A model generated the notes under the pieces. The model had not been told where the DNA came from and ran no database searches. It saw nothing but the letters and a program-made list of their open reading frames with translations. A stretch of 64,000 nt of DNA from Balneolaceae bacterium (lineage in GTDB: Bacteria; Bacteroidota; Rhodothermia; Balneolales; Balneolaceae), in the NCBI GenBank assembly GCA_009711805.1, contig VEMX01000003.1, positions 1 to 64,000 of the forward strand. The letters are read 5' to 3'. Made by a program: the position numbers and the translations under genes. This document shows, one piece after another, positions 17,199-57,829 of this stretch (position 1 is the stretch's first letter; the number at the start of each line of letters is the position of its first letter).

Positions 17199-18614
17199 AT
17201 GAAGAGATCTGTTCTTGTTGTTGATGATGACGAATTGTTATTGGGGTTCCTGGAAGAAATCCTCTCAAAAGACGGATATGACGTAACAGCTTTTGAATCC
17301 CCTGTAAAAGCTACAGAGTATTTATCTGACAATTCCGTTGATCTGGTGATCACAGATGTAAAAATGAATGAGATGACCGGAGATGAAGTATTAAACTTTG
17401 TCCAAAAAAAAGTACCCAAAACAGGGGTTATCATGATCACCGGCTTTGGTAATATAAACCATGCCGTACGTGCCCTTCATAAAGGTGCCCATGATTATAT
17501 CACCAAACCCTTTAAGGCGAAAGAAATTTTGTTCAGAGTACAGCGGTTCTTTGACTCTGGCGGCCAGAAAGCAGCCCCAAAAAAGAAGACCTCCTCTGCA
17601 AAAAAGAGTGACAAAAAGGAAAAATCTGAACTGGTAAGTCCGGTCGATAACTCCCAGAAAGGGGAAAACAAATTTATTGGTAACGACCCTCAGATAAAGA
17701 AATTGATGCGGGTACTTCCCCAAATAGCCCGTAACGCTGCCCCGGTATTAATCCAGGGAGAAAGTGGAACTGGAAAAGAAGTATTTGCCCATCAAATTCA
17801 TGCAAACAGTAACCGTTCGGAAGGCCCATACATTAAGATTAATTGTGCCAATTTACCTTCTGAGCTGGTGGAAAGTACGCTATTCGGCCATGTAAAAGGG
17901 GCATTTACAGGAGCTATCTCGGATCGGGAAGGAGCTTTTGATGCAGCCGGTGGCGGTACCCTGCTGCTCGACGAGATCACCGAAATTGACATCAACGTAC
18001 AGGCTAAATTGTTGAGGGTGCTCCAGGAAAACGAGTTTTACCGAGTGGGCAGCCAAAAGCCTTTAAAAGCCAACGTTCGCATTATTGCAACCTCGAACCG
18101 TAATATTTCCAAGTCTATCTCTGACAAAACTTTCAGGGAAGACTTATACTACCGCCTGAACGTATTTCCAATCGAAATTCCACCTCTCAGACACCGAAAG
18201 GGAGACATCCCATTACTGGCCAACTATTTTGTAGATCTTTACTCATCCCGCTATGGAATGGAACGAAAAGAAATATCCGAAGAGCTTATGGATTTTTTGG
18301 TTAATCAGGACTGGCGTGGTAACGTTCGGGAATTGAATAACAAAATACACCGGGGATTTATACTGGCTCAGGAAAGTAAAGAAATGACTATTGAGCATAT
18401 CGATAACAAATTATTTTCCAGTGTGGATAACGAGTTGGCTTCCGAAATACTGAATGCCGACCTTCCCCTCATGTCTATAGAAGACATGGAGCTTCAGCTT
18501 ATTAAAAAAGCCCTGGAACATACCCAGGGCAATCAAAAAGAAGCAGCAAAGTTACTGGGTATCTCGGACCGAACCATCCGTAACAAATTAAAGAACGCGA
18601 AGAAAGACAAATAA
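17199..18614 (+). CDS. NtrC-family sigma-54 dependent response regulator, flagellar activator
   Basis: 471 residues with three domains. The receiver domain (1-115) has acidic DDD at 9-11, phospho-acceptor Asp53 (ITDVKM) and Lys103 (ITKPF). A Lys/Ser-rich linker follows. The AAA+ domain has Walker A GESGTGKE (187-194), the GAFTGA sigma-54 contact loop (234-239) and GGGTLLLDEIT Walker B. The Fis-type HTH is at the C-terminus (AAKLLGISDRTIRNKL). The family remodels sigma-54 holoenzyme to open promoters. Its position between flagellar operons suggests the FlrC/FlgR role. No kinase is adjacent; the one at 55162 is the best partner candidate. Confidence 0.9.
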   Translation: MKRSVLVVDDDELLLGFLEEILSKDGYDVTAFESPVKATEYLSDNSVDLVITDVKMNEMTGDEVLNFVQKKVPKTGVIMITGFGNINHAVRALHKGAHDYITKPFKAKEILFRVQRFFDSGGQKAAPKKKTSSAKKSDKKEKSELVSPVDNSQKGENKFIGNDPQIKKLMRVLPQIARNAAPVLIQGESGTGKEVFAHQIHANSNRSEGPYIKINCANLPSELVESTLFGHVKGAFTGAISDREGAFDAAGGGTLLLDEITEIDINVQAKLLRVLQENEFYRVGSQKPLKANVRIIATSNRNISKSISDKTFREDLYYRLNVFPIEIPPLRHRKGDIPLLANYFVDLYSSRYGMERKEISEELMDFLVNQDWRGNVRELNNKIHRGFILAQESKEMTIEHIDNKLFSSVDNELASEILNADLPLMSIEDMELQLIKKALEHTQGNQKEAAKLLGISDRTIRNKLKNAKKDK

Positions 18615-55161: not shown

Positions 55162-56214
55162 ATGAGTTTAATGAATCAAAAACTGTTCACAATAGATGGT
55201 TATAATAGCAAGGAATATGCATTTAATAATAATGATGAGTACTATGGTAAAACTCTACAGCATACAATAATGGAATTTGCAAGAGCTTTCATTGCTGATA
55301 TTTCTCATCCTATCTTTATTATTGATAGTGAAACAAATCGTATTATTTATGCCAATGAAGCCGCAACTCCAGTTCAGGGAGAATATGATCTTGTAGGTGA
55401 ACAGTTTAAAGCAGCTGTTCAGGTTTTTGCTAAAGATATCACTGATGAGTCTATCGCCTTTTTTAACCGGCAATGGTATAACCTAAAGGAAAAATCTTTT
55501 GAATGGGAAAATTCAACCTTTCTCATAAAAGAATTACAGCCCCGGCCCGGCGTTCCTGACCAAGATACCCTGGAGACCTGGAAAAATATGATTGCGGTAA
55601 TGCTTCACCGGTTTCGTTCTCCACTTACGGGCATGACTGGCTACCTTGACATGATGGAAGATCAGAGCCAGAACGAATCCCACAAAAAATGGTTTGCCCT
55701 TATAAATAAGGGAATTGACCACCTCTATAATATGATGGATGAGATGGAGGCTCTGTATAACATCCCTGCCAATTACAACGATTCCAAATCATCTGAAACG
55801 GATGCCGTTGCCATCATCAACAATATCATTTTAAACTTACCTTCTGAAATACAAAAGAAGATTGCATTTGAGCAGGCCGATGAAAACATCACTTTCACCT
55901 GCAATCCACTCAACCTTAAGCAGATTATCAACGTTTTGCTTAAAAATGCCCTGGAGCATTCTGCAAATGAAAACGAGCCTATCCAAATCACGATAAATGC
56001 CAACCGGTACATTCAAATATCAAATCCAGGAAAAGTAATTCCCGACTCTATTCGCAAAAATATTTTCCATCCTTTTGTTACCAGCAAAGCTAATAACCTG
56101 GGTATTGGGTTAACCATGGCCTTGTTGTATGCCTATCAATTTGGCGGAAGTGTTTTCCTTACACGGAACAGTGAAGAATGCGGAATCAGCTTTACCCTTT
56201 GTTTTCCAAACTAA
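55162..56214 (+). CDS. PAS histidine kinase, likely partner of the flagellar NtrC-type activator
   Basis: 350 residues, no membrane segment. A PAS-like part (about 30-115; HPIFIIDSETNRIIYANEAA) precedes a HisKA domain with His149 in MLHRFRSPLTGMTGYLDMM and a HATPase domain with the N box (IINVLLKNALEHSANENEP) and GIGLTMALLYAYQFGGSV. Soluble PAS kinases of this layout (FlrB, FleS, FlgS) phosphorylate the sigma-54 activator in other bacteria. It lies next to the flgB operon but far from the regulator gene at 17.2 kb. The pairing is inferred. Confidence 0.85.
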   Translation: MSLMNQKLFTIDGYNSKEYAFNNNDEYYGKTLQHTIMEFARAFIADISHPIFIIDSETNRIIYANEAATPVQGEYDLVGEQFKAAVQVFAKDITDESIAFFNRQWYNLKEKSFEWENSTFLIKELQPRPGVPDQDTLETWKNMIAVMLHRFRSPLTGMTGYLDMMEDQSQNESHKKWFALINKGIDHLYNMMDEMEALYNIPANYNDSKSSETDAVAIINNIILNLPSEIQKKIAFEQADENITFTCNPLNLKQIINVLLKNALEHSANENEPIQITINANRYIQISNPGKVIPDSIRKNIFHPFVTSKANNLGIGLTMALLYAYQFGGSVFLTRNSEECGISFTLCFPN

Positions 56215-56416: not shown

Positions 56417-57829
56417 ATGCTTACTGAAGAAAAAGCCCAGCCTAAAACCAATACTATAAAGAGTACAACCCCTGCTCCTAAGCAGGAGGTTAGTCCTGCC
56501 AGTCAGGAAAATTCTTTTACCTATAATAACCTGTTCTTTTCCGTTACTGATTCGAAGGCGGCTATTACCCATGTGAATGATTTTTTTGCTCAAGTCAGTA
56601 AATATGAGCAACACGAAATTGTAGGTTTACACAGCAAAAAACTATGGCATAAAGATATGCCCCGGGCTATTTCCAATATCTTTTACCGTTATCAAGAATC
56701 AAAAAAAACGGCGGCAGCTTATGTAAAGAATGTAACTAAAGACGGTTCCTATTTTTGGGCAATGGAAGTTTCCTTCCCCTGTAAGGGCGGGCACCTTTCA
56801 ATCCGGCTAAAACCTGGAAGTACGCTGTTTGGCACAGTCCAAAAGATGTACACAAAAATTCTTCGGCTTGAAGAGGATCTGGATTGGGAAGAAAATCAAC
56901 AGGAAGCAGCCCAGGCATCACACAATTATCTTTTGGAATTGGTAAACAAAGAAGGCTTTGCCGATTACGAAGAGTTTATGTGGAATGCCCTACAGCTTGA
57001 AATGCGTAACCGTGAAGAAAAACTAGCCACCTCTTCGGTATCGGCCGATAACAATAAAGCGGTACCCCCTTCATTATTAAAGCTGGAATCTATTTTAGCT
57101 GAATTGGTACTATCGCTGGAAAACCTGGAAGATATTCACGGAGCTCTTGTCGACCATTCGAATTATATCCTCAAGCTGGCACGTTCTATTCTTTTACTAT
57201 CTCTAAATGCCCAGATTGGTTCTTCCAAGCTCAACCAAAGTGACCACTCGTTATCCGTAGTGGCTGAAAAGATGGGTGAACAATCAGTATCGGGAGAAGA
57301 AAAATTAATTAAAATAAAGGAGAGTATTCAAAGCCTGAGTACTCTTATTGGAAAACTGAACCTCAAAATTATTTCTTCCAAACTTCAGGTTGAAATGACA
57401 ACCAGTTATCTTTCTGAAACATATCAGGATCAGGAAGGAGGCAGCACTTCATCTGTTGCTGAAAAAGAGACCAAAGGAATGCTAAACGATGCCTTTATGC
57501 CTACTGTAGACCAAGTAATGAACGGCATAGGCAAAATCCCTGCTAACCTCAGAGAACTCCTCCATGGTGTTAAAGATATTGAGCGATTTCTGCAGGTTCT
57601 CCGGTTTATTCATATTACCGGTAAAGTAGAAGTAGCACGCATGAATGAAGAGGCTAACTCTTTTTCTACTACTTTTCAGGACCTTGTTCGGGAAATTCAA
57701 ACCGCAGAAAAACATCTTAAAAAACTCACTACTGTGGTAGAAGACAACAAAGGAACAGCTACTATGTATGTAGATTACAGAGAACGGCTTTACAACATCA
57801 TCCGTAATATTGAGCGTATCGACTGGTAA
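56417..57829 (+). CDS. PAS protein with degenerate chemoreceptor signalling tip
   Basis: 470 residues, soluble. After a Pro/Gln-rich start comes an Aer-like PAS domain (about 35-135: LFFSVTDSKAAITHVNDFF, then EIVGLHSKKLWHKDMPRAI). A helical middle follows. The segment ILLLSLNAQIGSSKLNQSDH then SLSVVAEKMGEQS lines up with the MCP tip [20 protein letters not shown] then [14 protein letters not shown], with the conserved Glu, Ala and Arg residues changed. More helices follow to the end. It may be a soluble sensor with a reduced CheA/CheW contact tip. It has its own sigma-28 motif. Confidence 0.7.
   Translation: MLTEEKAQPKTNTIKSTTPAPKQEVSPASQENSFTYNNLFFSVTDSKAAITHVNDFFAQVSKYEQHEIVGLHSKKLWHKDMPRAISNIFYRYQESKKTAAAYVKNVTKDGSYFWAMEVSFPCKGGHLSIRLKPGSTLFGTVQKMYTKILRLEEDLDWEENQQEAAQASHNYLLELVNKEGFADYEEFMWNALQLEMRNREEKLATSSVSADNNKAVPPSLLKLESILAELVLSLENLEDIHGALVDHSNYILKLARSILLLSLNAQIGSSKLNQSDHSLSVVAEKMGEQSVSGEEKLIKIKESIQSLSTLIGKLNLKIISSKLQVEMTTSYLSETYQDQEGGSTSSVAEKETKGMLNDAFMPTVDQVMNGIGKIPANLRELLHGVKDIERFLQVLRFIHITGKVEVARMNEEANSFSTTFQDLVREIQTAEKHLKKLTTVVEDNKGTATMYVDYRERLYNIIRNIERIDW

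Follow-up and report, generated by a model that had tools for sequence, protein, structure and literature searches.

The window analysed here is a stretch of 64,000 nucleotides from a Balneolaceae genome, and it contains on its forward strand a real and intact open reading frame for a protein of 470 residues (Table 1), which is present as a single copy within its own genome and whose nearest relatives are only 58% identical. We searched the 470 residues for transmembrane segments and found none, in agreement with the first-pass annotation, which had called the protein soluble. The gene is preceded by a site that matches TAAAGTTT-N11-GCCGATAA, which we take to be the sigma-28 consensus, at 13 of 16 positions and with exact spacing. 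A related element recurs in the family, since CGATAA is found in the 150 nt ahead of the gene in 11 of the 16 Balneolaceae members as against 5.6% of background windows, and the sigma-28 promoter that had been proposed earlier is thus upheld. A soluble PAS histidine kinase is encoded next to the gene. Elsewhere in the window, at 17199-18614, we noted a sigma-54-dependent response regulator, and it is possible that this regulator and the kinase (55162-56214) form a FleS/FleR-like pair.

Table 1. Positions in the window of the gene, its domains and the neighbouring elements.
Feature	Residues	Position	Strand	Basis or remark
Complete ORF, soluble PAS / single-chain MCP-like protein	470 aa	56417..57829	+	sequence, model
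Sigma-28 (FliA)-like promoter, TTATGTTT-N11-GTCGATAA		56347..56372	+	sequence
Aer-type PAS domain	36-145	56522..56851	+	phmmer, Foldseek, residue comparison
Conserved helical linker, motif GF..YE.FM..AL..E...R	146-216	56852..57064	+	alignment, model
MCP-derived hairpin 1	217-345	57065..57451	+	hhalign, model, PDB profile search
Hairpin 1 tip core	261-290	57197-57286		invariant N264 = Tsr N381
MCP-derived hairpin 2	346-466	57452..57814	+	hhalign, model
Hairpin 2 tip core	396-426	57602-57694		invariant E405 = Tsr E385; R408 = Tsr R388
Neighbouring soluble PAS histidine kinase		55162..56214	+	adjoins the family in most flagellar-cluster copies

The PAS domain of the family is of the Aer type. In the window's protein it matched 8dik both by phmmer (E=6.5e-10) and, as a modelled structure, by Foldseek (TM 0.88, 1.5 A), which bears out an earlier description of the domain as Aer-like. 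E. coli Aer provides the closest PAS fold to residues 36-145, and when the whole model was compared by Foldseek PAS domains ranked first. The flavin contacts of Aer are H53, R57, W70, N85 and R115 (PMC9668731). The window's protein retains the equivalents of N85 and R115 (N105 and R130) and has Trp at the position of R57 (W77), Tyr at that of W70 (Y90) and Ser at that of H53 (S73), with a histidine, H72, one residue before. Because three of the five contacts are changed its ligand is uncertain; going by these residues, flavin binding by this particular PAS domain is doubtful. All five are kept in all other scored members, from Balneolaceae, Bdellovibrionota and Alphaproteobacteria, and flavin is the probable ligand of the family's PAS domain. 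The stretch around the pocket (window 56627-56689, residues 71-91) is altered only in the window's protein.

Other Bacteroidota have Aer-type PAS domains as stand-alone proteins as well (L011-L029, 172-210 aa), several of which (172-190 aa) terminate in a linker similar to the one that precedes the hairpins in the window's protein. In one pair of relatives (L070:865-2256 and L004:1498-2889, reverse strand) the hairpins are 97-98% identical and the PAS domains only 75%, with a dS of 1.6 in the PAS domain versus 0.3 elsewhere, and here the PAS module looks to have been replaced through recombination.

Beyond the linker the protein carries two MCP-derived hairpins. The first-pass annotation had seen one of them, and this part of its reading stands: the segment LLSLNAQIGSS...SLSVVAEKMGEQS aligns with the MCP tip without gaps. 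The second hairpin, residues 346-466, had been overlooked. Against the Pfam MCPsignal model (PF00015) the protein scores 9.9 bits, below the cut-off of 34.6, and the best of ten relatives reaches 29.0 bits, still under it. Profiles of 44 sequences for each hairpin were compared by hhalign: that of hairpin 1 matched MCP tips with P=9e-8, that of hairpin 2 matched MCPs with P=1.4e-4, and the two aligned with each other along 90 columns without a gap and with tip matched to tip (P=7e-6). All three matches outscored 100 of 100 heptad-block shuffles, and the reversed controls failed to match. With the Balneolaceae alone (Neff about 2.5) hhalign did not detect the internal repeat and the MCP match was weak; both signals became clear once Bdellovibrionota sequences were added to the alignment. 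The weakest link in the argument is the match of hairpin 2 to MCPs. When the family profile was searched against the PDB, the 13 best matches were all MCP signalling domains (2ch7, E=1e-13), and they included 3ur1 and 4jpb, presumably MCP-CheA-CheW complexes. Neither a HAMP domain nor methylation consensus sites were found in the window's protein, and a consensus-like string after residue 200 is present in 7 of 51 members. Atu1027 of Agrobacterium was considered as a relative and ruled out as a globin receptor.

Structure prediction had been suggested as a check on the MCP-like hairpin, and the AlphaFold2 model (pLDDT 88, pTM 0.85) contains two such hairpins, with helices at 234-270, 274-340, 347-407 and 414-466 and turns at 271-273 and 408-413, the positions of the MCP tips. 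The same arrangement was obtained when the C-terminal part was modelled separately, and the homologues that we examined do not carry a clear unrelated domain. The hairpin arms measure about 10 heptads each. In the model the output domain forms an up-down-up-down four-helix bundle, like an MCP dimer fused into one chain, and both tips are predicted to lie at the same end because each is about 70 residues away from the connecting loop. A Foldseek search of the C-terminal model against the PDB returned nothing at E<=0.001, the best matches being designed four-helix bundles; the chains of MCPs in the PDB are single hairpins, and for this reason the fused pair has no single-chain counterpart there.

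Across the 51 members, which come from three groups, N264 in tip 1 (Tsr N381) and E405 in tip 2 (Tsr E385) are invariant, G402 is nearly so and R408 (Tsr R388) is common. The equivalent of N381 is thus found in tip 1 and those of E385 and R388 in tip 2, so that the MCP signature is divided between the hairpins. In MCPs E385 and R388' make an ionic lock between dimers (PMC8144572). Tip 1 of the Balneolaceae shows changes at the positions of E385 (to G/S), G390 (to D/N), E391 (to Q) and G393 (to D), and its turn is more canonical in Bdellovibrionota (G 87%, G 77%). Closely related pairs of relatives gave a dN/dS of 0.014-0.026 for the tips. The tip had been described as decayed, and this description has to be given up: judged by its invariant residues and by the substitutions in relatives, the tip is a variant that has been conserved and on which purifying selection acts strongly.

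Full-length members were found in 15 of 92 Balneolaceae genomes, in about 30 of 241 Bdellovibrionota genomes (one Bacteriovoracaceae genome has two) and among the Alphaproteobacteria in Rhodobacter, Rhizobium and Neorhizobium, where one is annotated as 'aerotaxis receptor'. Two members, L073:655-2262 and L077:694-2256 (G425 contig 40), lie in one genome at most 1.8 kb apart. In a midpoint-rooted tree the Balneolaceae sequences form one clade (100/100), which suggests that they stem from one acquisition; the clade adjoins a Bdellovibrionota sequence with a support of 90/95, under the starred level. The family tracks CheA rather than flagella. CheA is present in 14 of the 15 Balneolaceae carriers (Fisher P=3e-10), the exception being an assembly that is 82% complete, and the association holds inside the flagellin-positive Balneolaceae genomes (P=0.0015). 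Among Bdellovibrionota CheA is present in each of the 34 genomes positive for the profile, compared with 160 of 241 overall (P=2e-7, or 1e-6 without three positives that match the tip only); all of these P-values ignore the kinship of the genomes and are hence too small. Eight CheA-positive Balneolaceae lack the family, which is therefore not essential.

The surroundings of the gene are related to chemotaxis as well. At one locus (L116) the gene and cheA share 4 nt, with cheW, an MCP gene and a gene for a CheR-CheB protein following; two further loci (L118, L121) have a similar arrangement and at another (L115) the gene is divergent from cheA. The gene lies inside cheA-cheW operons in several Bdellovibrionota. 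Six relatives have it in a flagellar cluster beside the PAS kinase, most of them with MCPs and CheW nearby, and four others carry it elsewhere.

We propose, with a probability of roughly 0.6, that the window's protein is a soluble, cytoplasmic energy/redox-taxis receptor whose MCP-like output domain is fused and asymmetric and acts on CheA/CheW arrays. The state of the Aer-type PAS domain would pass via the conserved helical linker into the two-hairpin output domain, in which the hairpins would pack as a four-helix bundle imitating an MCP dimer, tips together. The tip end would join arrays of receptors, CheA and CheW, and the protein, once joined, would shift CheA activity without methylation; we infer both the binding to CheW/CheA and the sign of the effect. 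MCP dimers are chemically symmetric and yet seated asymmetrically, one subunit facing the trimer axis and the other CheA/CheW, and in the diverged hairpins of this family the inner/outer asymmetry may be fixed in sequence. This leads us to the more speculative idea, which we hold only tentatively, of an MCP dimer that has become fused in nature and whose two halves differ in function: hairpin 2 would make the trimer-axis contacts (Glu385/Arg388) and hairpin 1 would be the outward side that faces CheA/CheW (Asn381). If true, roles that are interchangeable in homodimeric receptors would have been fixed in one gene. Engineered fused receptors have been made to separate the roles of the inner and outer subunits (PMC4692393), and a natural receptor whose halves have already fused and diverged, and which is retained in three phyla, would offer a test of what each side must keep.

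A different role in the array would be that of a modulator or decoy, in which the bundle inserts among receptors through the Glu/Arg trimer contacts of tip 2 without controlling CheA itself, and would dilute, stabilise or bias the array according to the state of the PAS domain. The retention of the trimer-lock pair E385/R388 in tip 2, the changed positions flanking the turn in Balneolaceae and the canonical MCPs and CheW that adjoin the gene would all suit such a role. The more canonical tip 1 turn of Bdellovibrionota, the place of the gene in cheA-cheW operons and the strong selection on both tips speak against it, and we regard it as rather unlikely. Since a modulator, too, would belong to the array, it differs from the receptor that we favour mainly in the control of CheA.

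It is distinctly improbable that the protein senses on behalf of another target, as had also been put forward; such a target might be the PAS histidine kinase next to it and the regulation of flagellar genes. In seven flagellar-cluster loci, that of the window among them, the two genes do adjoin and point the same way, but the kinase tracks flagella and not the family: among 13 genomes that have the kinase without CheA, the family is present in a single one, whose assembly is 82% complete. Moreover, at four loci (L035, L036, L038 and L039) the family member is found apart from the kinase, and in Bdellovibrionota the gene belongs to cheA operons.

That the gene is a decayed chemoreceptor heading for loss we consider very improbable: the non-canonical residues of tip 1 and the altered flavin pocket of the window's protein could be read in this way, but open frames are full-length in all complete members, tip residues are invariant across three phyla and the low tip dN/dS of the relatives contradicts such a reading for the family. 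A chance resemblance of an unrelated coiled-coil protein to the tip, for which the 9.9 bits of the single sequence against Pfam might speak, can practically be dismissed in view of profile matches that exceed both the reversed and the heptad-shuffled controls, the first rank of MCPs in the PDB profile search and a gene context of chemotaxis operons.

The soluble receptor that we favour shares with E. coli Aer a PAS domain and an MCP-derived output, and the relatives within the family keep the five flavin contacts. Aer is a PAS-HAMP-MCP aerotaxis receptor with one long hairpin per subunit, whereas the family has neither membrane anchor nor HAMP and joins two short hairpins within a single chain. 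The PAS domain with its short helical linker presumably resembles Campylobacter CetB; in contrast to the bipartite CetA/CetB receptor, PAS domain and output hairpins are here in the same chain. Cytoplasmic receptors with a FAD-type PAS domain are represented by Azospirillum AerC (PAS_FAD2; PMC13401364), which has two PAS domains where the family has one together with a tandem-hairpin output. Vibrio cholerae DosM is likewise cytoplasmic with two MCP signalling domains, located one at each end of the rod (PMC7534058), whereas in our models both tips of the family lie at one end. Natural single-chain MCP-like proteins, among them proteins of R. centenum, have already been reported (Berleman and Bauer 2005, Wuichet and Zhulin 2010, as referred to in PMC4692393), and covalently fused Tsr dimers (Tsr~Tsr) signal in E. 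coli (PMC4692393). As far as they are described there, these proteins have in common with the family two joined MCP signalling hairpins in one soluble chain, and by the same description the family is set apart from the natural ones by its strongly diverged, asymmetric tips that fall below the Pfam cut-off and by its Aer-type PAS domain.

The family is a conserved and unnamed kind of probable navigation receptor common to Balneolaceae, Bdellovibrionota and some Alphaproteobacteria. It constitutes a class of chemosensory component that escapes the standard MCP model, and receptor counts in the carrier genomes are therefore too low. We also came across another soluble protein with two MCP-like tips, a 617 aa open frame on the reverse strand (L061), in which the order of the tips is reversed, LRMLGIAAKIESARL coming first and VALNAQVKAAHLG second. 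Inspection by eye for a CheZ-like phosphatase motif led us to reject the EMT segment of the window's protein (326-328), which is without Gln at +4; in the 617 aa protein the helix QDIQFHDIARQQLQHV resembles a CheZ-type motif by eye.
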